This document shows, in pieces, positions 5,383-29,503 of a stretch of 55,047 nucleotides of DNA. Position 1 is the first letter of the stretch, and each line of letters opens with the position of its first letter. Source of the stretch: Flavobacteriales bacterium. GTDB taxonomy: Bacteria > Bacteroidota > Bacteroidia > Flavobacteriales_C > GCA-002722245. The stretch is taken from the NCBI GenBank assembly GCA_023251075.1, contig JAHEZM010000023.1:1-55047 (forward strand), in the 5' to 3' direction. The position numbers were made by a program, and so were the translations under genes. The notes under the pieces were generated by a model that had not been told where the DNA came from, ran no database searches, and was given only the letters and a program-made list of their open reading frames with translations.

Positions 5383-6660
5383 ATGAATTACAACAACTTT
5401 ATTCAAACGGGATTATTAGCTATCTCCCTGCTAAGTGTATCACTTAATGCAAAAGCTACCGACTTCATTGTAGATGAAGCAGGAACGTACACCACCATTC
5501 AATCGGCCATTGATGCCGCAAGTGATGGCGACCGTATCTTCATTAAAAACAGAAGCAATGCCACCCCTTACTTACAAAATCTTACGCTCAACAAAGCGGT
5601 AAGTTTGTATAGCAATCAAAATGATGTACAGTTTGACATGACAGGAAATATTACTATTGCTCCTGTAAATGGTGGAACAATAATCATACAGGGAATGCAT
5701 AATACTTCTTCTGCTATTGCTTTAGGTACAATAACACAAAACACCAAAATTCAATTTATCGATTCTAAATTTGACGCTACCTCAATCAATGTAGACCATG
5801 CAAAAGTTATTGCAGATTTTCTGGGAAATACAATTAATACCAATACTTCTGTGCGACTTTCGTTTGGTGATTTCATTGGGAATGAATTATTAAGTACGGC
5901 TACCAGCACCGGATTACTCGCATATAGCAATTTATATGCTGCCGACCCAAATACCCAAACAGCGAGAATTGTAGGTAATAGAATTATATACAACTCGTCT
6001 ACAAACAGTACTTATGGTATTTACTACCTTGGAAAAGGTTTGCCATATATCGCAAACAATTATATAAAATATAATGCCAGCAGTAACAGTGGTCTTTATG
6101 TTAGTCTCACCAATGTGACACTGACCAACAAACCGGTTATTATTGAAAATAATACTATTCATAACAACAACAACAACACGGGAGGGGGTTATGTAATTTC
6201 GTTTCTGGCATTAAGTACTGCTCAAGCATTTATTATTCAAAATAATATCCTCAATGGCTACAATGGCAATGTGTATTCTATTAATATGACTGCCGCCACC
6301 TACACCAACACCGCTAGTTCTATCAATAGTAATGTATCCAATTCCACTATAGCAATTTTTGATCCTTCAGTTATTGTAGCAAGCAATTTTGGAAACACCA
6401 TTAACGCTCCTATTACTATAGACAATTCTGCCACAGGTGCCGTATCTTCAACAAACGCTATCGATAAAGGAAATCCAAATTCTCCATACGATATTGACTT
6501 AACAAGAAACGACAGAGGATGTTTTGGCGGACCATTTTCACACAACAATTTCTTTCCACTACATACTGGTGCTGCAAAAGTATATTACATGCAATTGAGT
6601 TCTTATACTTTACATCAGGGAGATAATTTAACCATCAATGGCGAAGGTCTCGACCGTTAG
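5383..6660 (+). CDS. Exported right-handed beta-helix protein without a sorting domain
   Basis: 425 residues with a signal peptide (residues 1-25, ending NAKA/T). Right after it comes DFIVDEAGTYTTIQSAIDAA, the entry typical of pectin-lyase-like parallel beta-helix proteins. Beta-helix coils with Asn ladders follow (IIENNTIHNNNN, IIQNNILNGYNG). Near the end, GNPNSPYDIDLTRNDRG is the usual closing segment of such helices. No lyase catalytic residues can be assigned, so substrate and activity are unknown. The protein stops at a short strand ending GEGLDR, with no T9SS type A domain, unlike both neighbours. It may be periplasmic, use another signal, or have lost a C-terminal domain; downstream frames show no continuation. 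The next gene begins 25 bases later, so they are probably co-transcribed. Confidence 0.75.
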   Translation: MNYNNFIQTGLLAISLLSVSLNAKATDFIVDEAGTYTTIQSAIDAASDGDRIFIKNRSNATPYLQNLTLNKAVSLYSNQNDVQFDMTGNITIAPVNGGTIIIQGMHNTSSAIALGTITQNTKIQFIDSKFDATSINVDHAKVIADFLGNTINTNTSVRLSFGDFIGNELLSTATSTGLLAYSNLYAADPNTQTARIVGNRIIYNSSTNSTYGIYYLGKGLPYIANNYIKYNASSNSGLYVSLTNVTLTNKPVIIENNTIHNNNNNTGGGYVISFLALSTAQAFIIQNNILNGYNGNVYSINMTAATYTNTASSINSNVSNSTIAIFDPSVIVASNFGNTINAPITIDNSATGAVSSTNAIDKGNPNSPYDIDLTRNDRGCFGGPFSHNNFFPLHTGAAKVYYMQLSSYTLHQGDNLTINGEGLDR

Positions 6661-8423: not shown

Positions 8424-8451
8424 ATAGGGGCTGTTAAAAGACAGCCCCTAT
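8424..8451. terminator. Bidirectional hairpin terminator between convergent genes
   Basis: A perfect 11-bp stem (8424-8434 with 8441-8451; core GGGGCTGT/ACAGCCCC) closes a 6-base loop. It sits between the convergent genes ending at 8419 and 8474, with A-rich sequence before it and T/A-rich sequence after it, so it can serve both strands. Confidence 0.85.
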
Positions 8452-8473: not shown

Positions 8474-10618
8474 TTATTTCACAACTATACTTTCCGATTT
8501 TGAAAGAGGTGATGTTGTTCCATCAGGTAATTGAACTTTTAGAGCGTACTCATATTTACCTGCACCATTTAATTGCACATCAGAAAAAATTCCTTTTTTA
8601 GCCTCCACACTTTTATACAACAACAATCCCTGACCATTAAAATTTCTGTAAATAAGTATCTCACCAGAATACGTTGATGACTTCCAGGTAACATCTATTT
8701 TTTTCATTTCGCTATTGTAAGTTAACACTGGTTTTTCTTTTATCTCTAAGGCTTTTCCATAAGCTCTGGCTTTCAAAGGATATGATTTAGCAGAACTGTT
8801 TCCTGCTTCATCAATAGCAGCAATAGCATACTCATACTCTATTTTTGTTTTAACAGAATCATCGAGATACATGCTAATATTTTTTTCTAAGCGACGAAAT
8901 TCTTTCCATTCGCCATCGGCTTCTTTTTTGAATAAAATTTGTTTTACCACATCAGAACTACTTGATTTATTCCAAAATATTTTAATACTTGTTTCTGTTA
9001 CTTTAAAATCATTAAACACAGGTTGAACCGGTGCAATAGTATCGGGACGCGTTATGCCAATATAATTAGATGCAATACTTACATTTTTGTGTTTATCTAA
9101 GGCCACCACTTTATAATATCTTCTTTCTGTTAGCGAGTGAAGAGTGATAGTATCTAAATAAGCATTAACGGGTACGATTTCCTTTGAAAGTGCTGTAAAA
9201 GCATGACTGGAATCATTGGCTGCATAAACCAAGTATCCGGCTATATCGGGCTCGGAAGCGATAGTCCAGGTGAGTTGAACCACTCCCTTTTCATTTACAA
9301 ATGCTTTTAATCCTTTAGGTTGCAAAGGAGCTATAGTATCTGTCATCAAAGCATAAGCTGCATTCGATGCAATAGTATTTCCGGCAGTGTCTATTGCTGC
9401 AACAATGTAATAATTGAGCACTACAGAGGATGCATTTTTATCTATGTAAGAGGTTGTATTGGCAGAAATTTTTTCGTTAGAAAGTGGAATGAAAGGACCT
9501 TCCAATCTAGATGATTTTCCAATAAAATATCCACTCAAATCTCCATCTGTTTGATTTTTATCCCAGGTAATTTCAACAGTAGTGCCTGTAGTATTAATTG
9601 CCCTTACATTTTGTGGCTGCATGGGTGGTGTTCTATCACGCCCCATGCAAACAAACACTGCCGATTTTCCATTGATACCAAAAGGAGTAACTCCGGTTAC
9701 ACGATAGTAATATGCCTTATAATTATGAGGCACACTATCGCTCCAGATAATTTCATTTTGTTGTTGTTCATCGAACAAAGGAGTAAAAATAGGATGAGTG
9801 CGTGGAGTATAAGTTTTTCCACCATCTTCAGAGCGTTCAATAATATACGATGTGAAATATGCAGCCGCTATATGTTTGTCCCATCCAATAGTTATTTTAT
9901 GATCATTCTCTTGTTTTGTAAACGAAAGGATTTGTGGTAACTCGCTGGGTTTAAAAGTTTGTATGATAGTACCTGCTGAATCGAATTTCATTTTTGAGTT
10001 TTCACTTCGGATATACACTTTATAGAAATAGCTTTTGTTTTTATCGATGCTTTTATCAACAAAAGAGAGTCCCATTCCTTTTGCTAAACTGGCTGATCTA
10101 TCAGCTGTTAAAAGTACCAATGCGTATAAATTTCGTTGCTCATTTAAAGCATCTAAAACAGCTCCTGGCTTAACGTCTTTCGTACCCACAACATCTTGTA
10201 CTTGTCCGTAAATTAAATGTGCTGCCATAGCAGAGGTGGTATCACCTTGATCAAATTTACTTTTCCAAACTTCAGAGGGGTAAGGTTTTATTGGATCTTT
10301 CGTTAGCGTTATTTTTGATTTTCTGTTGAGAACCGGAACTTGTCTTTTAGCCAGATTTTTTTCGGTGAAATAATCCGGCGATAAATCCATTTCATATCTC
10401 TCCACCACATAACCTCCATCTACACCTGCTTTCCACGATTGCCAGGAAGAAGGTGCCCAACGCAGAATTACTGAATCGCCATAATAAACGGCAATCATTT
10501 TAATAGATGGAATTCTGGTTTTTGTAATCACAGAATCCTTCTTCGTCTCTTTTTGAGCAAAAGAAAAAACAGCTATAAAACAAAAAATTATAAGTAGAGA
10601 GGAGGACTTTATTTTCAT
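8474..10618 (-). CDS. Exported fibronectin type III repeat protein
   Basis: 714 residues with a signal peptide (residues 1-21, ending SFAQ). After an N-terminal region of about 200 residues there are at least three, probably four, fibronectin type III domains. Their starts are marked by PPMQPQNVRA, APLQPKGLKA and APVQPVFNDF, each followed by an ITW/LTW/IFW strand and a YxVxAxD strand. The C-terminus ends SESIVVK with no recognisable T9SS sorting domain. Its ATG overlaps the stop of the 191-residue gene upstream in an ATGA, so translation is probably coupled. It is the last gene of a four-gene minus-strand cluster reading from 18484. It is probably a structural or partner-binding component at the periplasmic or outer face; no enzyme motif is visible. 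Confidence 0.82.
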   Translation of the reverse strand: MKIKSSSLLIIFCFIAVFSFAQKETKKDSVITKTRIPSIKMIAVYYGDSVILRWAPSSWQSWKAGVDGGYVVERYEMDLSPDYFTEKNLAKRQVPVLNRKSKITLTKDPIKPYPSEVWKSKFDQGDTTSAMAAHLIYGQVQDVVGTKDVKPGAVLDALNEQRNLYALVLLTADRSASLAKGMGLSFVDKSIDKNKSYFYKVYIRSENSKMKFDSAGTIIQTFKPSELPQILSFTKQENDHKITIGWDKHIAAAYFTSYIIERSEDGGKTYTPRTHPIFTPLFDEQQQNEIIWSDSVPHNYKAYYYRVTGVTPFGINGKSAVFVCMGRDRTPPMQPQNVRAINTTGTTVEITWDKNQTDGDLSGYFIGKSSRLEGPFIPLSNEKISANTTSYIDKNASSVVLNYYIVAAIDTAGNTIASNAAYALMTDTIAPLQPKGLKAFVNEKGVVQLTWTIASEPDIAGYLVYAANDSSHAFTALSKEIVPVNAYLDTITLHSLTERRYYKVVALDKHKNVSIASNYIGITRPDTIAPVQPVFNDFKVTETSIKIFWNKSSSSDVVKQILFKKEADGEWKEFRRLEKNISMYLDDSVKTKIEYEYAIAAIDEAGNSSAKSYPLKARAYGKALEIKEKPVLTYNSEMKKIDVTWKSSTYSGEILIYRNFNGQGLLLYKSVEAKKGIFSDVQLNGAGKYEYALKVQLPDGTTSPLSKSESIVVK

Positions 10619-11190
10619 GGAGCGCTAAATATTTTAGTGGCTAAAATAGGGTTATAATTCAATCGAACAGGAAGGAAGGATCCTGAATAAGGATAAGAAT
10701 CCCGGAGACCTGCTCTGAATTCTAATTTTTGTTGAACTCCACTATAATGTGAGTAAGCATAGAAATCATTATTGGCCAAACAAATTAAACGAGTTTGAAG
10801 GTTGTCATCGTTATAGATATAATTATTTATCATTAAATATTGTGCACGATCATGCACATATTTCCAATCCCAATAAACATAAGTTGGAACAGCATAAGTT
10901 AAATGAAGTTTATAGGGGAAAAGAGATACTACAGCAGTTCTATCGCCCACCGCCAAATTACTGGCTGTCATTTCTTCTTCACTTGCTTTTTTTACAAACA
11001 GGGTCCCTCCCGAAAAATTACTTGCAGTAGTAGTGGATTGTTCCATAACAGTAACTGCCGGAACTACATTCACTTTATTCACAGCGCTAAAGGCTGTGGT
11101 AGCAGCAAAAAACTGTGCTTGCGTAAATAGAGGTAAGGCAAACCACAACGAGAAAAAATATGCCCAACGATTTTTCTTTTTATTTTCCAT
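10615..11190 (-). CDS. Small exported protein of unknown function in the surface cluster
   Basis: 191 residues. MENKKKNRWAYFFSLWFALP and the following residues to about 25 (ending TQAQ) form a signal peptide. The mature part is rich in Ser/Thr/Val and aromatic residues (YAVPTYVYWDWKYVHDR, DFYAYSHYSG). I recognise no family. It overlaps the fibronectin III gene by four bases (ATGA) and lies 31 bases after the 1823-residue gene, so it appears to be an integral member of the same operon. Its size and export signal suggest an accessory subunit or chaperone-like partner, but this is inference from position only. Confidence 0.65.
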   Translation of the reverse strand: MENKKKNRWAYFFSLWFALPLFTQAQFFAATTAFSAVNKVNVVPAVTVMEQSTTTASNFSGGTLFVKKASEEEMTASNLAVGDRTAVVSLFPYKLHLTYAVPTYVYWDWKYVHDRAQYLMINNYIYNDDNLQTRLICLANNDFYAYSHYSGVQQKLEFRAGLRDSYPYSGSFLPVRLNYNPILATKIFSAP

Positions 11191-11221
11191 ATGAATTCAT
11201 TTAATAAAAATACAATTAATA

Positions 11222-14200
11222 TTACTTGGTCATCAATACCCCTACGATATCTGCATCGTAATTAGGAGGAGGTAACTCAGCAATAGCTTCCTCGAATGTT
11301 AAAGCAGGTTCTGTGGGAGTTTTATCGGAAATTCCAACTGGATTTAAAAAACAATTCGAAATATTATCGCCATAATAATGATTGAAATCGTAATTCGCCA
11401 AATCGCAAAAATCCTCACTTCCCCATCCTAACCCTAAGTGTAGTGTCTCGCGAGAATTGGCCAAAACAAAATAATCTTGAAAATATCCTTTTATAAAATT
11501 TCCTCTCCACCCTTCAAAGGAATCTGCTTCACGAATATCGACAATGGGAGGACTACAAAAATTTGCTTTACCTAAAGGATAAGTTCGTCCTTGTAAATCA
11601 AATATATCAAACCCTTCGCCTGAGCCGAAAGTAATTTCCATAGTTTGTACATCTGTGCCAGGATAATACATAGTGGTGTTGGTGGATTTTGAACTAATTG
11701 CATTTACTTTCTCACTCAAATTATTGTACTTGCTTGTACGGAAATAATAATCGTACAATGTAATATTGGTGGGCGTTCTTTTATTTCCTTCTACTGCTGT
11801 TTTAACCATGTACACCTTACTCGATCCTAATCCTGCATCGGCAGCTTTTAGCATATCAACATTTCCAAAACGATTAAAATCAAAGTTCACCATTGTCATG
11901 TTGTCGTATGGTCCTGACTTCAACTTTTTTAGTAGGATGAAATGCACTACTGCTTCATTAGGTAATACAGGAATTGGAAACTCAACAACCAATCCATTCG
12001 CTACAGCATTGACCTCTTGTGTTCCTATTTGTTCTTGATTTTTGTAGGAAATAAATTGCACTTTGAGTTCATACTTATCGTCGTTCAAACAATCATAATC
12101 CACCGGCAAATCTAAATGTCCTTTTCTTGAATTTTCTTCCTGTAAAAAATATCGCTGTCCAACAAAAGGATAGGAATTCAATACTTTTCCGGCCAATGAT
12201 TTCGGACAACCACCCGCTTTGAAATATGTTTTTCCAATCTCTGATACCTCAGCACCCTTGAATGTTGTTTGCTCAAACCTGCTCGTATTTTTATTCCATT
12301 CCAAAACCTTTACTTTAATTTCAATTTCATGATTCCCCTGAGGTGTATAACATTTTTTTGGGTACAACATCATCGATTTGTGATCATCATCCCAGGTAAT
12401 CATTCTGTTATCGAATTTCGATAACACCACGGCATTGGTTGTTAAATCAATCACATTGAAATAATCAATTTCAATTTTAAAAGTTCTATCGATAGGATTA
12501 CCCATATCGTTTTTATCACTGATAGTAAACTGTTGCTCCACCGGATAATTAAAAGCCACTTCAATAATTTTATCTACTTCAACATCGGGTTTTACTTCTG
12601 TTGAATTTAATGTACCTGGAGCTATCTGACTTATAATAGGTAATCCATCACCAAAAGGTCTTTTCTCGGCAATACATTTATTTTCTTTACCTATTTCCAA
12701 ATGGAAATTCATGTTACCTTCCACTACTCCACCCAACACACTGAAATGTCCATTTACCCAACCTTCAAACCATGTTGGGTTTGGCATACCGGCGAGCAAA
12801 GCTGTTCCCACCGACAAACTTCCGGCCGATACTCTTCCTTTGTAAAACCACACATCAACATCTAATCCGAAATCATATTCTAAAAATGCATGAAAACTTC
12901 CGTTGGCATAATACCCGTTAAAACCAGGGGCTCCCACCACTCCTGCACATTCAGTAGTTAACTTATCTAAGGAAAAATCGAAACCAATACCACTATTAAA
13001 TTTTATATAAAAACAAAGAAAATTTTCATCCACTTTTGGTAATGCTAAACCGGCACCAAATACAATGGCTTCGCCCATTCGTAAATCGTGCGTATTTCTC
13101 ATTGCATCCGGAATAGAAGTAATATGACACACTCTCACCACATCATCGTTCAACACAATGGAAGGATCGATAGCGCTACCTGTCATGAAATAACCCATAC
13201 CAGTAATAGCACTATTGAAAGCTAAATAAGGTGGTGGAAAAACAGCGAAGGGATGTATTTTTATAGGGGCATTAGGTTCTCCCATTTTTAAATACCAATC
13301 GCCCGAACCTCCATCTACATGCAAAGCTAAACTTGCCGATACCGATTGCAGTTTTAAGGAGCCAAATTTAGCTTCCATTTCATAAGCACATTGTAAATCA
13401 AAAATAGTATGGGCCACATCAAAGTTGATTACACCTGCTCCTTTCCCCACCGATTTATCTAATTCTCCTAAAGGGCACATCATGTAAAAGCTTCCATCGA
13501 AACGAATATTTTGTAAAGAAAATTTTCCACCACCCACATTCACAGTAGCATTCAATCCACAAATTCCTTGTAAAGTAGATCCATCAGATAATCCTAAAAC
13601 AATATTTCCAAGAAAACCTGCTGTGTTGGCGTTAGGTGTATAGTTGTTGGCTAGGCCCGTTGGTTTATGTAATAAATCTAAAGGGTTGTTCGATAATTTC
13701 GCTGGTTCCAAATGATAATACAATCCTGCACCCATACCAAAAACACTCACCGGCGGCGCAGGTAAAGTGGTAATTGGAATTCCTGTTTCCAGCTTAACAT
13801 TCGCATCGATATAGAAATAAGTGTAATTGTCTTTGTGTCCAAATAATCCTTGCGATTTCACCGATAAAGCACCGATTACGGTCATCGTTAATTCCCCTCT
13901 TATTCCATCCTGAAATACTGGATCATTCTCATAAAATTCTAACTCGCCTTTTATTTTTGCCGGACCCAAATCTCCATCCACCATTATTTTTTTAAGATCT
14001 AATTTTTCGAAATGCCAACTAGGTCTTCCTGCCATTAATTCAGGTTTTCCCAAAATACTAAACGCAACACTGGCTTTAGGTAATGCTCCTAAATCGGCAA
14101 GATTTAAACCCATTTCGAAACTAGGCCCTACTAATCCTCCTTGTGAAACAAGTTTAAATTTATCGAGTGTAACATCGAAACCACTGATGTCTTTTTGCGG

Positions 14201-16693
14201 ACTGGCAAAGCCACCCACAAAACTTCCAATGGAATAATAAGGATCATACGACATCAATTTCAAATGTTCAAACTCCATTAATTTATAGGTTACATGAATA
14301 CTTTCAATATCGGCTACAATATCCATTTTACCTGACAAATCAGTGCTCGCTCTAAATTCATCTCCTTCATATTCTACAGTAATATTTGAAGTGTTATACA
14401 ACTCAAACTTTGAATACCACAAAGGAACATCGATGTTGTTTTTAGGTTGAATAACAAATTGAAAACCTAATTTACCTGTTGACGAAGAAGAAAGAGTACT
14501 GGTATAATCGAGCTGATTTTGTGCAGTATTCGGACTCACGGGCAACACCATTTTACCTTTCATTCCTGCTTCTGAAAAACTATTTTTGATGATAGATCCA
14601 TATATTTTATCAACAGAATAATACCATCCATCCAAACTACCATCACCAATTCCTAAAATATTTTCTGCATTCAAATTACCACTCACTCCTTCTCCATCAA
14701 TAATAAATCCGGTACAAGAAAAATGAATGGGATCAGTACTATTTACTTTATGAATGGCATTGGGTAAAGCAACATTTAAAAGAGGTAAATAAAAACCAGT
14801 CCATGTTACATCACTTACCAACGCAGCAGGTATACCCGCCGGATTGCTTAAAGACGAATGATCGTAATAAGCACTATCTGCCATAGAAAAAGTTAAATCC
14901 TCAATGCCTTTAATAATAAATGGATCTATCATCACCGATGCTTTCCAATCACTCCAGTTTTTTCCTTCTCCAAATAAAGTGGCAATTACTTTTTCGCCAG
15001 GCATTTTTTTAGAAGAAAGTATTTGTGTAGAAAAAGTATATTCTGCTTTCAATTTTAATTTTTCGAAACCTGAATCTTTGAATCTCACATGAGTGGCAGG
15101 ATCTGTTGTAGTTCCTCCTCCTATTAATTTCAAATTCAGAGATGGTAAATTAACATCTGCCCCTAAAAACAATACGCCATCACCACATATACCATTGGGT
15201 TTAATACAAATATTTCTTGCACCCAAAGAAATTTTTGTTGCACCATCTGTTATATCCACTACCGTTGCGGCATCGAATGCTCCTGCTGTAGGCGACAATC
15301 GTAAATCAACCACAGCAATCACCGTTTTTACACCCAACACATTTTGATCCACACCAAATGGCAAATCAAAACCACTTGCTGCCATAGCTGCCATCATATT
15401 TGATTTTAAATGTGCTGCATTATCGCTGGCAAATTGATCAACATAAACGAATTGATCGTGTGTTAAAGTCATTGGTCCTAAATCAGGAGAAACCATAGTA
15501 GGTGTAAAACTCACACCGGCGCGCTTAACTGCTGATGCTTGTCCGGCCATTACCACGTTAGAACTATTCACTGTTACATCAGAAAATTCCATTCGAATAG
15601 GAAGATCCATGAAAGTTAAAATACCTGTTCCGCTGGCCTTATTATCGGTAATATTTAAAGTCGAAATTTTTATAGATTGATTACCAAATTTAAGATTATC
15701 CCCCACATCCAACTTACTAAAATTCACAGGATCCATTGGTATTTCAGCATTACACGAAGCACAACTCACATTAATTGCATCTACAACTACCGGAAGTGTA
15801 ACGACATCATTTTTATATTCAAAAGAACAAACCGGACTCAACCCTTGATTGGCAAATTGTAAAATTCCCATAGGATCGTAAGCTTTCACTTGAATAGCAT
15901 AAGTGCCTTCTTCCAAAGGAAGAAATCCCGATCCATATATAAATTGATTTTCTGAAATATCTGTTTGATGAAATACAAAAGTACCTGCACCACTTTGCAC
16001 CGCAGTATTCATAGCATCATACGGACTAATATTTTCAGGCACACCCACCATATATAAATCGTATTTGATTGCAGCACCTGTAATATTTCCTGTAGCAGGC
16101 ATCCAATTAATTACCAATTGCTGAGGATCGGTTTTTTGAATAATACCATTGCACATCGGTTGAAGCACTATAGGGGGTTGAATATTTGAAATGGGAACAA
16201 TAGCACAACCCACCTCGGCCTGAGATAATTCTACTGTTATATCATCATATTTAAAAGCCTGAACACAATATTGATAATTCCCCTCTGGTAATATTCCTGA
16301 AAGTAAAAGATTGGTTTTTTCATCTTCACTGGCATTCGTTTCATAATCCTGAATATCTAAACTAACATATTCTTTTTGCTCCACTCCCGTAACAGTTCTA
16401 AACTCCAGGGGTTGCAACACAAAAGGAATAACCGAAAAATCTTTTTTCGATCGAAAATAAACCCCGGTATTTAAATTGGTAATAACAAATTGAAAACGAA
16501 GATTACGCACGCTATTGGTATTGTTCTGAAGCGATACCACCGATTGATTTAAAAAATTAGCATACTCATGAATATTGGCACTATAGGGCGGTAATGTTTG
16601 CACCGTAATAGCAATATCTGTATTGGTAAACTGCGCGTAAACAGGTAACCAATAACATAAATAAAAAAACAGAAATGCTTTTACCTTTTTCAT
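11222..16693 (-). CDS. Giant exported protein (1823 residues), resembling TANFOR-domain proteins
   Basis: A signal peptide (residues 1-20, ending VYAQ) is followed by FTNTDIAITVQTLPPYSANI. An N-terminal region of about 290 residues holds two or three all-beta modules (LSGILPEGNYQYCVQAFKYD; QQLVINWMPATG; EEGTYAIQVKAYDPMG). From memory this N-terminal pattern resembles Bacteroidota proteins annotated with the TANFOR domain, but I could not search to confirm. The very long middle is rich in alternating beta strands (repeated GxLxF, KLKGELEF-type segments), possibly a large beta-structure. Two cysteine pairs (ISCASCNAE; later single Cys) may form disulfides. The end (IVGVLMTK) is not a T9SS sorting domain. 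It is second in the minus-strand cluster, 12 bases after the outer-membrane barrel gene. Export and all-beta character are well supported; function is unknown. Confidence 0.75.
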   Translation of the reverse strand: MKKVKAFLFFYLCYWLPVYAQFTNTDIAITVQTLPPYSANIHEYANFLNQSVVSLQNNTNSVRNLRFQFVITNLNTGVYFRSKKDFSVIPFVLQPLEFRTVTGVEQKEYVSLDIQDYETNASEDEKTNLLLSGILPEGNYQYCVQAFKYDDITVELSQAEVGCAIVPISNIQPPIVLQPMCNGIIQKTDPQQLVINWMPATGNITGAAIKYDLYMVGVPENISPYDAMNTAVQSGAGTFVFHQTDISENQFIYGSGFLPLEEGTYAIQVKAYDPMGILQFANQGLSPVCSFEYKNDVVTLPVVVDAINVSCASCNAEIPMDPVNFSKLDVGDNLKFGNQSIKISTLNITDNKASGTGILTFMDLPIRMEFSDVTVNSSNVVMAGQASAVKRAGVSFTPTMVSPDLGPMTLTHDQFVYVDQFASDNAAHLKSNMMAAMAASGFDLPFGVDQNVLGVKTVIAVVDLRLSPTAGAFDAATVVDITDGATKISLGARNICIKPNGICGDGVLFLGADVNLPSLNLKLIGGGTTTDPATHVRFKDSGFEKLKLKAEYTFSTQILSSKKMPGEKVIATLFGEGKNWSDWKASVMIDPFIIKGIEDLTFSMADSAYYDHSSLSNPAGIPAALVSDVTWTGFYLPLLNVALPNAIHKVNSTDPIHFSCTGFIIDGEGVSGNLNAENILGIGDGSLDGWYYSVDKIYGSIIKNSFSEAGMKGKMVLPVSPNTAQNQLDYTSTLSSSSTGKLGFQFVIQPKNNIDVPLWYSKFELYNTSNITVEYEGDEFRASTDLSGKMDIVADIESIHVTYKLMEFEHLKLMSYDPYYSIGSFVGGFASPQKDISGFDVTLDKFKLVSQGGLVGPSFEMGLNLADLGALPKASVAFSILGKPELMAGRPSWHFEKLDLKKIMVDGDLGPAKIKGELEFYENDPVFQDGIRGELTMTVIGALSVKSQGLFGHKDNYTYFYIDANVKLETGIPITTLPAPPVSVFGMGAGLYYHLEPAKLSNNPLDLLHKPTGLANNYTPNANTAGFLGNIVLGLSDGSTLQGICGLNATVNVGGGKFSLQNIRFDGSFYMMCPLGELDKSVGKGAGVINFDVAHTIFDLQCAYEMEAKFGSLKLQSVSASLALHVDGGSGDWYLKMGEPNAPIKIHPFAVFPPPYLAFNSAITGMGYFMTGSAIDPSIVLNDDVVRVCHITSIPDAMRNTHDLRMGEAIVFGAGLALPKVDENFLCFYIKFNSGIGFDFSLDKLTTECAGVVGAPGFNGYYANGSFHAFLEYDFGLDVDVWFYKGRVSAGSLSVGTALLAGMPNPTWFEGWVNGHFSVLGGVVEGNMNFHLEIGKENKCIAEKRPFGDGLPIISQIAPGTLNSTEVKPDVEVDKIIEVAFNYPVEQQFTISDKNDMGNPIDRTFKIEIDYFNVIDLTTNAVVLSKFDNRMITWDDDHKSMMLYPKKCYTPQGNHEIEIKVKVLEWNKNTSRFEQTTFKGAEVSEIGKTYFKAGGCPKSLAGKVLNSYPFVGQRYFLQEENSRKGHLDLPVDYDCLNDDKYELKVQFISYKNQEQIGTQEVNAVANGLVVEFPIPVLPNEAVVHFILLKKLKSGPYDNMTMVNFDFNRFGNVDMLKAADAGLGSSKVYMVKTAVEGNKRTPTNITLYDYYFRTSKYNNLSEKVNAISSKSTNTTMYYPGTDVQTMEITFGSGEGFDIFDLQGRTYPLGKANFCSPPIVDIREADSFEGWRGNFIKGYFQDYFVLANSRETLHLGLGWGSEDFCDLANYDFNHYYGDNISNCFLNPVGISDKTPTEPALTFEEAIAELPPPNYDADIVGVLMTK

Positions 16694-16705
16694 ATGCAGA
16701 TATTT

Positions 16706-18484
16706 TTATCTTTTTGTTTCATTCGAATTTTCTTTATTCTCCGCTTTAGCACTAGATGGATCAACAAACGTTAAAGTGTATCGGATGTTGAAGGAAGAAA
16801 ACCAAACACCATTACCAAATAACACATTATTTTGAATACTTCCGTTTAAAGCCAAAGTATTGTTTTTATTTGGCTTGTAAGAAATACCCACCTTACCATT
16901 GATAGAACTTTTAGCATTTGAAGAACTTACCATTGAATAGATATAATTAACAGACACCGTAGTATTTAATTTGTCTTTCAAAAAAGTTTTTCCCACACTT
17001 TCTCCCAAGGATAACGATTGAGTACTTATTGTTCCGTAACTGTTTTTGTACACTGCGATCTGCTCGGTAAAAGAAGTTTTATTTCTTTTGACCGTAGTTT
17101 TATGCGAAGTATTAACACTTAAATTACTGGAAGAAAAATCATATAAATAGGCAGGATTTATATTTTGCAATGAGTTGTAAGAAGCCGTAAAAGCAATCAC
17201 CTGATTCGTTGATATTTTATCATTGGTATAATTGCATCCTCCCGAAATCATTCTATTCAAAAGATTCATTCTCATTGAATCTCCAAGCTCTTCCTTTATA
17301 AAACTTTGCGACATATTGGCGTACAGCAAACTAACATTCATCATTAATTTTTTAGTAACTCTTAAATTGGCATTCAATGTTCCGTTCAATCTATTGGTTA
17401 CTGTATTTCGAACCCGGTAAATATTATCTTGCGATGATAATAAATTACCATTTACAGAAAGTTTGCTTTTGAAAAAAGAGCGATTGTAGATTAAAGAATA
17501 TTCCGATAAATCGGTTTGCAAATAAAAAATTCCCATCGTTTTAAAATCAGGATCAATCCGTCGGTATTTAAAAGTAATTCCTCCTTTATTTCCTGTGTAT
17601 CTTAAGGAAGATTCTCCGGCAGTTAAAAACTGACTGCTTAAATTTATTCCAACCACAGCGTTGTTAGTGAGTTGATTGCTCAACACCGAATCGTAATTTA
17701 AAGCACTCCTATCACGCGTATATATACTTAAAACAGCAGAAGTTTGCCAAACAATTCTTTTTGAAAATGCAATAGAAAACGAAATACCCGTTGCAGCATT
17801 TTCAGCTGCTTTTACATTTGATTTTACAGGCTGACTTATAGATTGCAAAACATCTGATCCTTTGAAAAACAAAAAATCGAAATACGATTTAGAAGTTCCA
17901 AATCCTATTTTACCACCAAATCCATATCGTTCATAAGTGGTTGGAATAAGTTGAGCAGAAAGCGTATCCTCTCTTTGTGCTTTCGATAATTGTCCGCCCA
18001 TAAACGCAAACCTGAATTTTTTTGGAGTCATTTCTATCCCACCTCCTAACACCATTCTTCCACTAAACAAATAAGGTGATACATTTAAAGTGCGATATCC
18101 GGCATGCAATTTTAACCACTTCCATGTAGGACTCACACCTATACGATTAAAAGGATGATTGATTCCCTTACTATTATTGGTAACATAAAAAGTGAAAGGA
18201 AAACTCATATTGTAAATTTTTATAACAGGAGAAAAATTCAGGTTGTAAGCATTTTGATTGTAAGGATTTGATGTTGCCGACGATAAATTCAATCCCGATC
18301 CTAAAGTAAGCGAACCCGAAAAACTGAAAGGTTTGCTCTTTTTAATTTGTGATAAATCTTGAGCAAAAATACCGCCATGAAGAAAAACAAAAAAAGACAA
18401 TGCAAGTGATCGAACAGTTACTGCTAACCATTTATACCTACAGAATCTTTGAAAAAAAAGAAACCATTCCCTGATCAAACTCAT
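16706..18484 (-). CDS. Outer-membrane beta-barrel protein, first gene of the surface cluster
   Basis: 592 residues. An unusually long N-terminal signal region (about 42 residues: Arg-rich start, then SLALSFFVFLHGGIFAQ) precedes DLSQIKKSKPFSFSGSLTLGSG, the beginning of a beta-barrel. The rest alternates polar and aromatic/hydrophobic residues in about 10-residue strands with Tyr/Phe girdles (YNLNFSPVIKIYNM, FRFAFMGGQLS, GITFKYRRID, FNIRYTLTF). The last strand is followed by a charged tail of about 20 residues. A later Met could be the true start, but the ATG at 18484 gives the only good signal peptide. It leads the cluster of barrel, giant protein, 191-residue protein and fibronectin III protein. 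The barrel may form the outer-membrane anchor for those three. Confidence 0.75.
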   Translation of the reverse strand: MSLIREWFLFFQRFCRYKWLAVTVRSLALSFFVFLHGGIFAQDLSQIKKSKPFSFSGSLTLGSGLNLSSATSNPYNQNAYNLNFSPVIKIYNMSFPFTFYVTNNSKGINHPFNRIGVSPTWKWLKLHAGYRTLNVSPYLFSGRMVLGGGIEMTPKKFRFAFMGGQLSKAQREDTLSAQLIPTTYERYGFGGKIGFGTSKSYFDFLFFKGSDVLQSISQPVKSNVKAAENAATGISFSIAFSKRIVWQTSAVLSIYTRDRSALNYDSVLSNQLTNNAVVGINLSSQFLTAGESSLRYTGNKGGITFKYRRIDPDFKTMGIFYLQTDLSEYSLIYNRSFFKSKLSVNGNLLSSQDNIYRVRNTVTNRLNGTLNANLRVTKKLMMNVSLLYANMSQSFIKEELGDSMRMNLLNRMISGGCNYTNDKISTNQVIAFTASYNSLQNINPAYLYDFSSSNLSVNTSHKTTVKRNKTSFTEQIAVYKNSYGTISTQSLSLGESVGKTFLKDKLNTTVSVNYIYSMVSSSNAKSSINGKVGISYKPNKNNTLALNGSIQNNVLFGNGVWFSSFNIRYTLTFVDPSSAKAENKENSNETKR

Positions 18485-22321: not shown

Positions 22322-25300
22322 TTACAGCGAGTAACGCAACGACAAACCACCATTGGAATTCGATGTTGGAAAAGAGTTGGAAGTATAAGGTTTATTTAAA
22401 GTGATTTCATAGAACAAACGAAGATTTAATTTATCACTCAACACATAATCAGCGCTGGTTTTCAACATAATCACACGAGAACCAATGGTCAATTGCTCCG
22501 ATCCATCGATTTTATGCAACGCTGTTTTATTACTGGTTATCGATAAATCGGCTCTAAGATCCAAATTACTTTTTGGGTGTTTACCCATCACCGGGAATGG
22601 GAATTTCACATCCTTAATTTTATAACCCGTACCGGTAACAATAGTAAAATTAGACATTTCCATCACCGATGTTCCTACAACATTCAAGGAAATGGTTCTC
22701 GTTTTTTTCAACTCGAACTTTGCTATCCAACTGTTTTTTAAAGTAGCATCTACTTTTATTAGCGGACTCAATTGTTCCGTGATGGTTACCAAACCAACAG
22801 AATACAAAGGAATAAAACCAGCAGCAGTAGTATCGGTAGAATTGCCTTGTGCATCACCTTTAAAAAACTGGCTGTGAGTAACGCTTTGACTCATAGTAGA
22901 GGAATACATGTGACTCACCATAAACGACTGGAAATTATTTTTAATCCACGGCATTTGCATAAATCCATCGTAATTCACTTTCCAGTTAGGCATTGGCATT
23001 TTCTTAAATGCTTCCATTTTTGAAAAACTTGCATTCGATCCGGTATAGGCCGAAACAAAAGAATACAATAAAACCTCTTGTTGTAATTTACCATAACCAT
23101 TGTTAAACCCTCCGGTAGTTCCTAGGTTAGCAGAGTTAGGATTGTTGGCCGCTAAACGACTGGAAATTACTGCGCGGTTATTTAAAAATTGATCGTAAGG
23201 ATCAGAATGTGCCGTGGTTCTAAAATCAAAAGCAGAGCCAATAGTAACCACGGTAATGTTATAAGAAGCCGTAAGCATACCCGAATAATCATGCACTACT
23301 CCATCTTTATCAATCCTGTAAATCAAAGAAGAATCACGATTGAACGAACGAGTTGCCGTAATATCAATTTTCAATTTTTTAATAGGTTCAACCGTTGCTT
23401 TTATATTTAAATTGTTGGTGAAATTTCTAGCAAATTTTGTATTCAACGAATCTGATTTTTTGGTAAGCCACCCGGCATTAGAAGCTCTTTGCAAAATATC
23501 CTCTTGTTGTTGTCCGGTTGCAAATTGAAAACCCGGAGACATTTGATCTTTATTGAAACCAAAAAAATCTGTAGTAGGGTCATAACCCGGTAAAAAGGTT
23601 CCGTTGGTTTCGGTATAATTGATAGATACATTTTTTACCATCATCAACATTTTAATGGCCTCTTCTGCTAAATTAATGTCGGGCAATTTCGATTTTTTAG
23701 TGCTGTCATTTTCCACTTTTGGTTTTCTGGCCTCCGTATTTAATTTTTTCAAGTACTTCGATTTGTTGTATAAATTCACAAAATTGAATTGAGAATTCAA
23801 TTGCTTAGAATTACTGTTGGAAATATTATTTCCTGTACTTTGAAAAGCAAGAGGTGCAGCCTGCCAATCCATTTTAGCAGTGTATTTCACGTTGGCAGTG
23901 ATCCAATCGGTAAAAGGAATTTTACGCAAAGGTAAATCGTAATTCACATCAAATGTTTGAGAGAAATTGGTATTTCTGCCGAAGTTTTTCAAGTTGTTTA
24001 AAACGATTTCTTTCTTCCAGCCTGAATCAATTCTTCCTTGTGGTTCATCAATCCTTGCGCGATTGGTGGCAGTGTATTTAAACTTTAAAGCTTTCGATAA
24101 GTCCCAACTCACATCATAGGCTCTATCCCAAAAAAAGTTTTTATTAAAAACGGGTTCTATCAATAAATTTGCACCGGTGTTATTCCTAATCATACTTTCG
24201 CTATACAACCTGTTTAAATCATTTTTAATAGCCACACGAGCAGGCACTAAAAAGAAGTTGAATTCACGCGTTAATTTTAAATAGGGAGTTTGCATTGCAG
24301 CACTTGCTAATTTTGCAAATTTAGCTTTGTTCTCCTGAAGCTCTTTTAGTTCAGCTTCCAGTTTTTTTACCGCCGCACTCTCGGCTTTTATTTTGTTTTC
24401 CTGCGCTATTCTTTCCTGTAAATTTTTCTCCTTTTCTTCATACGATTCCATTCTTACTTTTTTATAGTAACCAATAATTGGAGAGCTGATAAAAGGCTGA
24501 AAATTTTTGGGCTGATGCGTAAAATTATAATTCATAGAACCTTTATAATTCTGCACCACATTATAACTTGTATTCACATCGCTTTTAAATACTTCATTGA
24601 AAGAATAGGTAGCATCGAAATTCTCTACATCATAAGGCATAGGCTTTTTGGTAGATTGCGGATCTCTGTTTTTTCTTACGTTTGAAAAGTTCATACTTCT
24701 CCTTCGCTGATAGGTTTGTGTACTATCAGCCACTTTTTTTCTCGTGACCGGATCGAGATCTTTCATCTTCACATCCTGATCTAAAGGATTGTATTCCTGA
24801 TTTTGAAAAGTTTCTGAAACACCAAAATAAGTAGGAATGGTAACGTGATATTTCGAAGGAACCAATTTACCCAATTCAAAATTTCCGGAAGCATCGTAAG
24901 AAGTATAATATTCTCTTTTTCTCTGACTCACTTTATCGGTAATAGCACCCCAGCCAGGAGTGTACATTTTTCCCGACAAGCTCACCGTTCCAAAATCAGC
25001 CAACTTTAAATTGGTGGTAGCGGTAGCAGCCCATCCATCGCTTTGATTGAAACACGACAAACGCAACTCATTTACCCAAACACCCAGTGATCTAAATTGA
25101 CCAGGAGTACCTAAATTTCGCACACCTATCATCATCACTTTTACCTGAGATAAGGTGGGCGAACCTTTTACATAAACAAAGTTTTTTCCATCGCTCACTT
25201 TATATCTTTGATTTAAAAAATAGGTGGAAGGATCAAGATCAATTTTTCCATTTCTTTCCACTTTCGCATTGGTTAAAACAGAGAAATTAAAATCGAAGGA

Positions 25301-28300
25301 ATTTTGTGATGGCCAAATTGCCGCACGTGCAGCAGTAATATCGTCGTAATCCTTAAAGCCTTTATCGGTAAAGGTTAAAGGAATTTCATACTCATAATAA
25401 TTATCATCAAAATCACTTCCCAAACGCAAAAACACAGTCATGTTTCCATTGTAATCGGTAGCGGGATCTCCTTTGGTTTCGGCATGTACAAACATTTTCA
25501 AACAACCGTAAGAACGTAAATCGGTGTTGGTGTTGTAGTAAGCGGCTCTGCTATCACAACCATCTAAATTATCTACATTCAAATACAAGGCTTGCTCATT
25601 CAAAGTAGATTGTGTTCTTAAATCGGTTACACGATCAACCGGTGGAACATAATGGATGGGTTCTTTCTGACTATCTTCTTCCACGTTGATGGAAGTAACT
25701 GAAAATTTGGTGTTGTCATCCACCGCCACAAATTCACAATCACTCTTTAAAGCACTTTCGTATTTTCTCCAGGTTTCACGAACCAAATCAATTCTTGCAA
25801 ATCTCAAGATTACCGGATCACTCCACCCTTTCATCATCAAACGAATGAAACGCATAGATCTAAAATCCTGAATTCCACCCACTGCTTTTTCTGGCTGACG
25901 AATGGGAATTCTAAAGTGAATCCATTTTGCAGTAGGCGTTGTACCATATGAATTAATAGGGGTTCCTGCTCCATCAATCATATTATTTAAATAGTTGGTT
26001 CCTGATGAAACATCGCTGATTTCCAAATCCTGCGGACGCATAGAAATATGATATTCATAATAACTTTCCCCTTCATTCATTGTGTTATCACGATTGATAT
26101 CTTCGATATCCGGAATGGTGGTTGCCGATGCCACAAAGCTTGAACTATTGTCTACTGGTGAGTTACCATGAACACCATTGAAAGATTTATATCTTTCAAT
26201 TACTTTACTGGAAGTAGAATTAAAATCTTCGTTTCGATAATGTTTAAAATTATCTCCGGCAGGATCGGCATCGATAGATGCTGGAATAGCACCAAAGGTG
26301 CTGTTGTAATAGGCCAGATAATCTTTGAAAAAAACTTTTTCTCTGTCATCACTCAAACCATCTAAACCAACATCCTGATTTTTTCTTCCTGTTGGATCAT
26401 TATCAAAAGCATTTACGATATTCAATTTCGTTGGAACAAAACCCCAAATGGTTGTGTCTACATCAGTCATTGTGGTTCCATCTATCGGCAATCCATTTTC
26501 AAAAGATTTTCTGGAATCTTTCAAAACATCTTCTGATAAATTTCCAATGTGCACTACTAAATCTCCACCTGTTTGCTTACCACCAAAAATATCTTGATCG
26601 TTTTGTGCGCCTCCCTCAAAAGGATTCATCACCCAAAATTCTAAAAACTCAATATTTGAATATTCAAAATCCACCGTTTCAATTTTTCGCATAATACCAC
26701 CCCATCTTGTCTCAGGAGACTTCAGTGTTCCGTCGGCATTTACCCCCTTCGAATAAATTCCTCCTTGCGTATCGAAGTTATACTGCCCTCTTTCTAAAGG
26801 ATAGTAAGCTAAATCTAAGGTTACTAAATTCGGACTAATACCATTTTGTCCGGTTTTCTTAGGAAATACTTCTACCTGATTAATCGGACGAACGTAGTTG
26901 TTGTTTTGTTGTGCTTTATCTTTCGTTAAGTAATCAGGAGTGAATGATCCATTATCGGTAAATAAAGGATCAATATTGTACCATGCTAATTTTGCTCTGT
27001 TGAAATTGGTAGCTCTCGTAGTATCGTATGCTTCCGGATAAACTGTTGGTTGACCTTGTGGCACTGAGGCCAAACTCCAGCTTGATCTTACTGTTAAAGA
27101 AGTATTGGTTTCTGCTCCTTCAAAATTATCGATATACGATTCTCCTTTACCTGATGCATTATTGGCAATGGCCGATGAGGTACCAGGAATGAATTGCGCC
27201 ACCTCACCTGTAAAATCTAAATTCGACATTTCCTTGGTGCTCAACAAAGGCATTTTATCAATCCATTTGGTAAGCAATGGCAAATCTGTTCTGTATTTAG
27301 TGTTGAGTCCCCACAACGTATTCGACATAGGTTCATCTCCCAAATTCACTTTGTAATTCAATGGTTTCTCAGTAAGATTCATGATGGTTGCGCCCACATT
27401 AAAATCTTTCGAGAATTTGTAATCGAGATGCGTACCCAATAAATTTTTCGTTTGTATGGCAAACAAAGAATTACTTTCTAGTGATACTCTTACCGGAGTT
27501 GCCGAATTCAAAATACCTTCGTTGATGATGGTAACCTGACCAGCCATGTAATTCACGGTGTAATCCTGATTTTCCACTAAAGTTTTTCCACCCGCAGTTA
27601 CCAATACCGAACCTTGAGGAACATTAGAGGCGCCCAAATAAATTACGTTGGATTGTGAGGTTTCAAATTTCACCCAGAATTTAAAACGATTTCGCGAAGG
27701 AAATTTTGTTTGAGCGGCAATCGGACTAACAGTATACAACGAGTCAAAACAATATTTATTGGCAACTGCCGGATCGCTAATTTGATTGCGCAAAAATTTT
27801 CCGAAAGGCTCTCGAACCGGAAAATAAATTCTTCCCGTATTGGCACGAACAGTAACACCTTCAATAAAGTCAAAATATCCATCAGGAATTTTATCCTGCT
27901 GAATATTCATTTGATCGGCATGCATTAATTCTACCCATCTTTGCGCATGAGGAACACCTTCATTTAAAAAATTCATATCGGTGTTGGTGGCAGGATCGGT
28001 ATGCAAAATTTGCATTTGAAATGTCTCTGGTTTAATTCCCGATTCACCCAAAGAATAAACGTTCTTCATCATCAAATTCCAGGTGGGTAAATAATTTGCA
28101 TTTACTTTATTCGACTTTAGTAATTTCAAAATCAAAGCCTGCTTTCCCGTTGATCCATCGGTACTGATTTCACCTACCTGATGAACCACTCCATCTTCAC
28201 CAATTACAGTGTACTGAAAAGCAACTGCCAACACCTCATCGGCATTTAACGATTTATTTAAGGAGATATAACCCAACTGTACATTAAAGGTAAATTCATC

Positions 28301-29503
28301 GGCCTTTAATTTTCTGGCATTTTCAATTTTATTGTAATTCACTCCATCCTTGTAAGGCCAGGTTTGAAGCGATGCATCAGCATTCACGAAATTTTTAATT
28401 TGCACATCTGCCTGCGCCATTGCGTAAAGATTGTTGATACTATTATCGGGAACTGAAATGGAAGGTTGAATTAACAAGGTTGGATCGAAAGTGTTTTTTT
28501 CACCAATATCCATGAAGCCAATAATATTTCTCGATTCTTCATTGTTGTTATTTCCCACGTTGGTCATCCACACTTCCACTCTGTTGATTTGGTAAGGAGA
28601 ATTGATATAAGGTAAATTTGCTAATGCGGTATCGTAGCGATTGGCAAAAAATTGCGAAAGAAAAAAGTGACGATTGGCTTCGTATTGATCGGCTTGAATT
28701 TTAAAATCACGAATTTGTGAACCTCCCTGAGTTTCTACTGTTTTCGATTCTCCTTTTTGTTGTGTGGCAATGGCGGTAACCGATAATTTACCAAATTGCA
28801 ATTCTGATTTAACACCGAATAAAGTCTGACTCCCTTGAATCAACTGCGTTTGCAAAGGCATACTCACATAACCCAACTCAATTTTTTTAATAATTTCATC
28901 TTCATCACCCGCATATTCCAACTTCATCTGATTTTCAAAATCGAAAGTTGATTCAGTGTTGTACTGCATCGTTAATTTCAATTTATCACCAATTTTACCC
29001 ACCAAATTCAACTGAATTTTTTGATCAAATTTGAAATTACTGTTGGTTTGATTCCGAACCGGAATGGCCGGATTTCGAATGGTAGAAGAGTTTACTCCGA
29101 AAATTAATTCAGCGGAACCTGTAGGTTTGATATCAATTTTATTACTTCCAAAAATACTCGCCGCTTTACCCGGTACCTTCATAGGAGGCAATAAACCTTT
29201 CTTTTCTGAAAAACTTTCGCTCTCCACTTTTTCTTTGAAATATTTGTCTTCCGATTTCTTGAAACGCTCATCCCAATATTCCTGAAATGATTTAACATCA
29301 GATCCCACCACCTCATCACCAATTTTTTTAATTATCGTGTAATTGTTAGTAGCAGGATTGTAAATCACCTCTTCTTTTACGGCCAAGGGATCGTTGGTGA
29401 ATTTATGCACCGTGCTATCGGATTGCGAATATGCAATTTGAGGAATAGTTGTTATTGCCAACAACAGAAAACACAAAACTATATTTGACTTAATCTTTAA
29501 CAC
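22322..29503 (-). CDS. sprA: T9SS outer-membrane translocon SprA
   Basis: 2393 residues, close to the about 2400 of characterised SprA. A signal peptide (residues 1-26, ending AYSQ) is followed by long stretches of amphipathic beta strands forming the very large barrel. They are punctuated by conserved SprA blocks such as PYINSPYQINRVEVWMTN, YMAGQVTIINEGIL, KGESYIDNFEGAE and RSLGVWVNELRLS. SprA is the outer-membrane pore through which T9SS cargo with C-terminal sorting domains passes. The cargo genes at 2841, 6686 and 18914 in this window are presumed clients. The start is GTG, overlapping the ruvA stop by one base (TAGTG), so translation is probably coupled to ruvA. This gene order is conserved in many Bacteroidota. 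Confidence 0.96.
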   Translation of the reverse strand: MLKIKSNIVLCFLLLAITTIPQIAYSQSDSTVHKFTNDPLAVKEEVIYNPATNNYTIIKKIGDEVVGSDVKSFQEYWDERFKKSEDKYFKEKVESESFSEKKGLLPPMKVPGKAASIFGSNKIDIKPTGSAELIFGVNSSTIRNPAIPVRNQTNSNFKFDQKIQLNLVGKIGDKLKLTMQYNTESTFDFENQMKLEYAGDEDEIIKKIELGYVSMPLQTQLIQGSQTLFGVKSELQFGKLSVTAIATQQKGESKTVETQGGSQIRDFKIQADQYEANRHFFLSQFFANRYDTALANLPYINSPYQINRVEVWMTNVGNNNNEESRNIIGFMDIGEKNTFDPTLLIQPSISVPDNSINNLYAMAQADVQIKNFVNADASLQTWPYKDGVNYNKIENARKLKADEFTFNVQLGYISLNKSLNADEVLAVAFQYTVIGEDGVVHQVGEISTDGSTGKQALILKLLKSNKVNANYLPTWNLMMKNVYSLGESGIKPETFQMQILHTDPATNTDMNFLNEGVPHAQRWVELMHADQMNIQQDKIPDGYFDFIEGVTVRANTGRIYFPVREPFGKFLRNQISDPAVANKYCFDSLYTVSPIAAQTKFPSRNRFKFWVKFETSQSNVIYLGASNVPQGSVLVTAGGKTLVENQDYTVNYMAGQVTIINEGILNSATPVRVSLESNSLFAIQTKNLLGTHLDYKFSKDFNVGATIMNLTEKPLNYKVNLGDEPMSNTLWGLNTKYRTDLPLLTKWIDKMPLLSTKEMSNLDFTGEVAQFIPGTSSAIANNASGKGESYIDNFEGAETNTSLTVRSSWSLASVPQGQPTVYPEAYDTTRATNFNRAKLAWYNIDPLFTDNGSFTPDYLTKDKAQQNNNYVRPINQVEVFPKKTGQNGISPNLVTLDLAYYPLERGQYNFDTQGGIYSKGVNADGTLKSPETRWGGIMRKIETVDFEYSNIEFLEFWVMNPFEGGAQNDQDIFGGKQTGGDLVVHIGNLSEDVLKDSRKSFENGLPIDGTTMTDVDTTIWGFVPTKLNIVNAFDNDPTGRKNQDVGLDGLSDDREKVFFKDYLAYYNSTFGAIPASIDADPAGDNFKHYRNEDFNSTSSKVIERYKSFNGVHGNSPVDNSSSFVASATTIPDIEDINRDNTMNEGESYYEYHISMRPQDLEISDVSSGTNYLNNMIDGAGTPINSYGTTPTAKWIHFRIPIRQPEKAVGGIQDFRSMRFIRLMMKGWSDPVILRFARIDLVRETWRKYESALKSDCEFVAVDDNTKFSVTSINVEEDSQKEPIHYVPPVDRVTDLRTQSTLNEQALYLNVDNLDGCDSRAAYYNTNTDLRSYGCLKMFVHAETKGDPATDYNGNMTVFLRLGSDFDDNYYEYEIPLTFTDKGFKDYDDITAARAAIWPSQNSFDFNFSVLTNAKVERNGKIDLDPSTYFLNQRYKVSDGKNFVYVKGSPTLSQVKVMMIGVRNLGTPGQFRSLGVWVNELRLSCFNQSDGWAATATTNLKLADFGTVSLSGKMYTPGWGAITDKVSQRKREYYTSYDASGNFELGKLVPSKYHVTIPTYFGVSETFQNQEYNPLDQDVKMKDLDPVTRKKVADSTQTYQRRRSMNFSNVRKNRDPQSTKKPMPYDVENFDATYSFNEVFKSDVNTSYNVVQNYKGSMNYNFTHQPKNFQPFISSPIIGYYKKVRMESYEEKEKNLQERIAQENKIKAESAAVKKLEAELKELQENKAKFAKLASAAMQTPYLKLTREFNFFLVPARVAIKNDLNRLYSESMIRNNTGANLLIEPVFNKNFFWDRAYDVSWDLSKALKFKYTATNRARIDEPQGRIDSGWKKEIVLNNLKNFGRNTNFSQTFDVNYDLPLRKIPFTDWITANVKYTAKMDWQAAPLAFQSTGNNISNSNSKQLNSQFNFVNLYNKSKYLKKLNTEARKPKVENDSTKKSKLPDINLAEEAIKMLMMVKNVSINYTETNGTFLPGYDPTTDFFGFNKDQMSPGFQFATGQQQEDILQRASNAGWLTKKSDSLNTKFARNFTNNLNIKATVEPIKKLKIDITATRSFNRDSSLIYRIDKDGVVHDYSGMLTASYNITVVTIGSAFDFRTTAHSDPYDQFLNNRAVISSRLAANNPNSANLGTTGGFNNGYGKLQQEVLLYSFVSAYTGSNASFSKMEAFKKMPMPNWKVNYDGFMQMPWIKNNFQSFMVSHMYSSTMSQSVTHSQFFKGDAQGNSTDTTAAGFIPLYSVGLVTITEQLSPLIKVDATLKNSWIAKFELKKTRTISLNVVGTSVMEMSNFTIVTGTGYKIKDVKFPFPVMGKHPKSNLDLRADLSITSNKTALHKIDGSEQLTIGSRVIMLKTSADYVLSDKLNLRLFYEITLNKPYTSNSFPTSNSNGGLSLRYSL

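Follow-up and report, generated by a model that had tools for sequence, protein, structure and literature searches.

How a very large exported protein that lacks a type IX secretion system (T9SS) sorting domain leaves the cell is the question raised by a four-gene cluster at positions 8474-18484 of contig JAHEZM010000023.1 from a Flavobacteriales bacterium (the window, that is, the whole 55,047-nt stretch analysed, in whose numbering all coordinates are given). All four genes lie on the minus strand, in the order outer-membrane barrel, giant protein, 191-aa protein and FN3-repeat protein; the first two gaps measure 12 and 31 bases, the last two genes overlap by 4 bases (ATGA), and a hairpin at 8451-8424, just 3' of the FN3 gene, closes the operon. 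An earlier note on this DNA had described this layout, with signal peptides on all four products and a T9SS sorting domain on none; the open reading frame (ORF) coordinates agree with it, inspection by eye shows, at the start of each protein, a hydrophobic stretch with an AQ-type cleavage site at its end, and Pfam and NCBIfam scans found a T9SS sorting domain in 0 of the 4. The sole match in these scans was fn3 in the 714-aa protein, and PADLOC returned no match. We found that the cluster is one copy of a previously undescribed Bacteroidota gene set with modules B (the barrel), T and M (both in the giant) and F (the FN3 protein), and that its barrel makes a strong candidate for the outer-membrane exit or anchor that the TANFOR family has lacked so far.

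With the giant as query, matches were obtained in 9 of 40 genomes, the window's own genome counted, and the cluster was found in none of nine kin genomes (four of the same genus, five of the same family); a scan of genome contigs with the giant as lone protein query gave no match. A profile of the barrel was positive in 97 of 395 class genomes, representing 61 of 197 genera, and in most of the neighbourhoods fetched from these genomes barrel, giant and FN3 protein were adjacent. Named genomes were scanned from an 11-row barrel alignment, a 41-row alignment being too diverse for patterns, and yielded 349 relatives. Among the best 80 of these, the gene right after the barrel coded for a recognisable giant in 79, and the FN3 gene came next after 65 of the 67 complete giants, at a median gap of 3 bases. 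The hosts included Pedobacter, Mucilaginibacter, Sphingobacterium, Emticicia, Spirosoma, Dyadobacter, Arcicella, Chitinophagaceae, Saprospiraceae and many metagenome-assembled genomes (MAGs). Because this adjacency recurs in independent loci, the association goes beyond chance; that four unrelated surface genes became neighbours by accident, for which the absence from all nine kin genomes could be cited, is hardly credible, and for barrel, giant and FN3 gene the adjacency across many families refutes it. These three of the four genes thus form a conserved operon that is widespread in Bacteroidota and consists of B, F and a carrier of T and/or M. The co-conservation search bore out the shared set that the earlier note had claimed. 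Scattering of the genes in relatives, which it had named as evidence to the contrary, was seen only where T and M are separate genes, and there barrel, M and FN3 genes mostly stay together. In 19 of 73 named loci, among them L155, L153 and L136, the barrel gene was closely preceded by sensor kinase and response regulator genes, which the window copy lacks; one complete cluster (L146, PWWP01000325.1) lay on a contig labelled as a Gemmatimonadetes MAG, by transfer or mis-binning.

The 191-aa protein behaved differently from its neighbours, as no relative of it was present in any locus compared. Its slot between giant and FN3 gene was filled by unrelated small exported proteins in L058, L149, L176 and L184, and no similarity was found among the slot proteins of different loci; the ORFs in this position in L140 (530 aa) and L146 (284 aa) were not counted, being by eye split pieces of the giant and the FN3 gene. 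Since unrelated exported proteins occupy the slot elsewhere, the 191-aa protein may be a lineage-specific cargo or accessory. The proposal that the two smaller proteins complete a machine with barrel and giant is therefore supported, as far as membership in the conserved set goes, for the FN3 protein but not for the 191-aa protein.

The giant could be connected to a described family through its N-terminus. According to Jana, Salomon and Bosis 2020 (PMC7073777), the TANFOR domain is an N-terminal module of Bacteroidota polymorphic toxins, FN3 and SprB genes occur near TANFOR genes, and the proteins may be T9SS cargo, which is offered as a hypothesis only, the exit route not being established; that paper names neither the barrel nor the M module. 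It was the one substantive treatment of TANFOR found in the open-licence PMC literature (preprints excluded), and a barrel partner is likewise absent from the abstracts of further papers there that contain its title phrase. The window giant had no match to TIGR02542 at E<=1, and the cut-off of that model (67 bits) was exceeded in 0 of the 395 class genomes, accepted relatives included. A T profile was built from four N-termini (window, L013, L014 and L048, the first two of which were scanned and gave no TIGR02542 match), and it matched the N-termini of giants that do match TIGR02542 (L017, E 1e-39; L057, E 7e-39; L016, E 3e-31). These matches identify residues 5-324 of the giant, by profile homology, as a divergent TANFOR module. 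The comparison with TANFOR-like proteins in the earlier note was thus right, whereas its statement that such giants have no known role is at odds with the polymorphic-toxin role proposed for the class in PMC7073777.

At the level of genomes, T and barrel were nearly always found together. Across 365 genomes, 51 had both a strong T and a strong B match, 3 T only, 6 B only and 305 neither (Fisher 1e-51), TIGR02542 matches fell in barrel genomes in 24 of 25 cases, and M occurred with the barrel in 44 of 46 genomes, kinship being ignored in all three comparisons. The strong-T counts exclude weak T-like matches confined to the second Ig/FN3-like half, which may come from unrelated FN3 domains. In genome G363 a strong full-length T match was obtained, a barrel was not detected, and a frameshift disrupts the M gene (contig C47 near 106872), a combination that possibly reflects decay of the system, with the TANFOR protein left as an orphan.

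The modules were also joined and separated in informative ways. T and M are fused in the window; they are split in L078 and L085, and M stands without T in L011, L049 and L053, being in all five loci a separate gene beside the barrel; as a gene of its own, M measures ~977-1100 aa. Distant relatives of T and B (T' and B') adjoin in L204, L206, L207 and L213-L215, and in L222 (12572-16762, minus strand) one ORF of 1396 aa carries T' (151-373) fused to B' (833-1377); a genome of the same genus, G176, likewise has T' and B' matches in one ORF, of 1391 aa. In L213, L214, L215 and L223 the first genes of the operon encode T' (363-388 aa) and B' (860-906 aa in complete copies), and genes for a lipoprotein and for two giants, each 2.2-2.8 kaa long and by our reading RHS-like, belong to it as well; these operons include a small OmpH/Skp-like protein in L214 and L215 (Pfam match in L214). 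Assignment of these giants to a known RHS or Tc-type family was tried and did not succeed, a weak DUF6443 match being all that was obtained. What follows T was seen to vary. When passenger class, T+M or T+other, was mapped onto a 108-barrel tree, 14-15 changes were needed, at least 8 of them forced by well-supported branches, and closely related barrels differed in passenger class, for instance in two Pedobacter species. Barrel, T and FN3 protein are kept while the passenger is swapped, as would follow from a barrel that reads T and ignores what is attached to it. Other passengers included carboxypeptidase-regulatory-like repeats in some giants and, in TANFOR proteins beside the barrel or elsewhere, nuclease, TNT or lipase-like toxins. 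On the 59-kb plasmid pEMTOL03 of Emticicia oligotrophica (L230, NC_018743.1), genes for an SprB-repeat protein, the barrel (E 1e-110), a 2719-aa TANFOR protein (E 2e-60) with a WHH nuclease tip and a SUKH immunity protein lie in a row, and a Persicobacter plasmid has the order barrel, M protein, FN3 protein and a TANFOR protein of 2.1 kaa. The host of pEMTOL03 is a cultured type strain and would make a good experimental model.

With co-occurrence of T and barrel, fusion of T' to B' and passenger swapping in hand, we hold it moderately probable that the TANFOR domain is what the barrel recognises and that the barrel exports or anchors the protein bearing this domain; the role given to the barrel in the earlier note, to export the giant or anchor it, is thus the inference that fits best. 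In such a scheme the proteins would enter the periplasm by Sec, T would dock on B from the periplasmic side, where the hyper-conserved loop is the probable site, and B would either carry the attached passenger across the outer membrane or hold it there, with M and F as putative structural partners. Passengers would be exchangeable behind T, that of the window being M plus the C-terminal region. A broader proposal, that B and T (with M and F) constitute a two-step secretion system distinct from T9SS whose wide barrel exports interchangeable giants with an N-terminal TANFOR domain, from adhesin-like proteins to toxins and, via T'/B', RHS-like proteins, is tentative.

The structural model of the barrel (pLDDT 87, 71 sequences) is an outer-membrane barrel, with 24 long strands if residues 91-123 are non-membrane. 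With that number the long variable loops all fall on one side and the QPFNQFGxSPxYKW segment on the opposite one, which would place residues 91-123 on the periplasmic side. The barrel profile had no match among PDB sequences at E<=1, and the best structural matches were MtrB, OprD-type porins, AlgE and FimD. MtrB of the Mtr complex gave the best match across the full barrel (Z 19.0, 448 residues, rmsd 6.2), but identity was 11%, porins tied in Z and the haem partner is absent at the window cluster; given no Pfam match and no PDB sequence match at E<=1, the similarity to MtrB/PioB is one of fold and not of family. FimD of the chaperone-usher pathway (Z 16.6) offers an analogy for how the system might work, with a similar strand number and a wide barrel serving a beta-rich partner, although the window barrel has no separate plug or usher N/C domains and no chaperone, and the fold match is common to many barrels. 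Two-partner secretion offers a further analogy, a wide barrel (TpsB) paired with a beta-rich partner that bears an N-terminal recognition module; TpsB/Omp85 proteins, however, combine POTRA domains with a 16-strand barrel, whereas the window model runs from signal peptide directly to ~24 strands, and no TPS domain is present.

M (~1000 aa) and the C-terminal region were both common to giants from other families, and M carries two nearly invariant cysteines. A model of giant residues 22-1221 (pLDDT 80, pTM 0.49) comprises two Ig/FN3-like domains in the first ~275 residues, followed by M as a long beta meander; sequence searches of the PDB gave only a weak FN3-type match with the T profile and no match with the M profile. 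Top Foldseek matches of M were LptD, with ApoB100 also listed, and residues 818-1200 of the model matched porins, LptD and SprA walls at Z about 10-11 and rmsd 4.4 to 18. We considered from the latter matches whether M might be a true outer-membrane barrel; against this speak the C-terminus of stand-alone M proteins, which is CxxxxN where an aromatic residue would be looked for, and the internal position of M within fused giants. The continuous long-strand meander and the LptD and ApoB100 matches would also suit a TamAB-like bridge, in which the giant would form a beta-groove through the periplasm that ends at the barrel in the outer membrane, and the two together would move lipid or assemble envelope proteins without the giant being exported; the order tamA-tamB resembles that of barrel and giant. 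We regard this as improbable: the barrel model lacks the POTRA domains of TamA, the giant has a cleavable-type signal peptide in place of the inner-membrane anchor of TamB (by eye), M is replaced by other modules in many giants, and toxin tips are found on T proteins.

Membership in the TANFOR class, together with the small unique gene directly downstream, raises the question of whether the giant of the window could be a polymorphic toxin whose tip escaped recognition, with immunity provided by the 191-aa protein. The giant resembles TANFOR toxins in its homologous N-terminal module, probable Sec-type start (by eye), Bacteroidota host and nearby FN3 gene, and differs from them in scoring under the TIGR02542 cut-off and in having neither a toxin tip nor a recognised immunity gene. 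Pfam and NCBIfam revealed no toxin domain in the giant, relatives from other families share its C-terminal region as far as residue ~1742-1808, with 52% identity in the case of L117, and in the position searched for an immunity gene we found the unique 191-aa protein, which has a signal peptide and sits in a slot that holds unrelated exported proteins elsewhere. A toxin of this kind is therefore very improbable here. Toxin domains were likewise rare among barrel-linked giants, with one weak TNT match in the last 350 residues of 84. Toxin domains were, however, found at the end of TANFOR proteins whose genes lie elsewhere in genomes with a barrel-M-FN3 cluster: a TNT tip with small genes behind it in L203 (E 6e-20), and in L197, L199, L200 and L201 a common C-terminal domain of ~300 aa with an HSMG lipase-type motif; in L199-L201 lipoprotein-like genes that are candidates for immunity come next, as a tandem pair in L199. 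The TANFOR protein of L210 also has this ~300-aa C-terminal domain, the HSMG motif having been read in L197-L201, and the lipase-like tip is not in the toxin list of the accessible text of PMC7073777. The window genome contained one T match in all and no second, separate T protein. Because T and M are fused, a toxin tip is lacking and T occurs once in the genome, the window copy most likely displays a large surface protein that is not of a known toxin type.

Several observations weigh against a barrel that reads TANFOR. SprA was present in 383 of the 395 genomes and in all 97 barrel-positive ones, and a T9SS route has been proposed for TANFOR proteins (PMC7073777). Four strong-B genomes (G014, G037, G218, G307) lacked a T match, though several of these cases lie at contig ends, and G252 has a partial strong T match without a barrel match. 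The structural matches of the barrel spread alike over porins, MtrB and ushers, so its fold does not fix its function, and with a pTM of 0.49 the role of M is hard to read from the model. The window giant has no toxin tip and no second T protein accompanies it in the genome, so the link to toxins is there by homology only. The SprA distribution, the barrel's absence from all 12 SprA-negative genomes, the SprB-adhesin gene beside the barrel on pEMTOL03 and the published proposal would also fit a giant that leaves through SprA as T9SS cargo without a standard sorting domain, the 592-aa barrel being only a surface anchor or adaptor, as PorP/SprF is for the type B cargo SprB, likewise a dedicated outer-membrane barrel encoded beside a giant surface protein. 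SprA is nearly universal in the sample, however, and its co-occurrence with the barrel carries little weight, so that the independence from T9SS proposed in the earlier note stays conjectural. Scans of 66 FN3 proteins and of the last 350 residues in each of 84 barrel-linked giants detected no sorting domain, and the PorP/SprF Pfam family matched 0 of 71 members of the barrel family at E<=0.01, the window barrel being also distinct in its length and ~24 strands. We consider export as T9SS cargo rather unlikely and retain recognition of TANFOR by the barrel as the preferred reading.

For a toxin family published without an established exit, a specific and nearly always co-occurring barrel can now be named, along with two other conserved partners and one conserved loop as a target for mutation, and the question of TANFOR export thereby becomes directly testable. 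Since most barrel-linked TANFOR giants have no recognised toxin tip, it is preferable to regard the domain as a module for docking or delivery and not as the mark of a toxin.

Table 1. Features of the four-gene cluster, in window coordinates.
Feature	Position	Strand	Basis
Barrel B, 592 aa, predicted 24 long strands, no Pfam family	16706..18484	(-)	ORF, Pfam, structure model
Barrel residues 91-123, most conserved segment of the family, consensus QPFNQFGxSPxYKW; putative periplasmic loop or plug	18116..18214	(-)	alignment and loop-length parity
Giant, 1823 aa, single polypeptide: TANFOR module (T), M module and C-terminal region	11222..16693	(-)	
T module, giant residues 5-324: divergent TANFOR domain (by profile) and second Ig/FN3-like domain	15722..16681	(-)	
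M module, giant residues ~306-1345, all-beta long-strand meander	12659..15778	(-)	
C-terminal region, giant residues ~1346-1760, common to most T+M giants; toxin domain not found	11414..12658	(-)	
Small exported protein, 191 aa, variable slot between giant and FN3 gene; not conserved	10615..11190	(-)	
FN3-repeat protein F, 714 aa, conserved third gene, without T9SS sorting domain	8474..10618	(-)	
Terminator-like hairpin and T-run	8424..8451	(-)	11 pairs, strong

The genes flanking the cluster on both sides carry T9SS sorting domains. At 5383-6660 of the window, directly before another exported gene, lies a gene for a 425-aa exported protein that ends in ...LHQGDNLTINGEGLDR and has no sorting domain, and that might be a truncated cargo gene. 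At 22322-29503 and 29503-30081, 4 kb from the cluster, the gene for SprA, the T9SS translocon (2393 aa), abuts ruvA and a malic enzyme/phosphotransacetylase gene.

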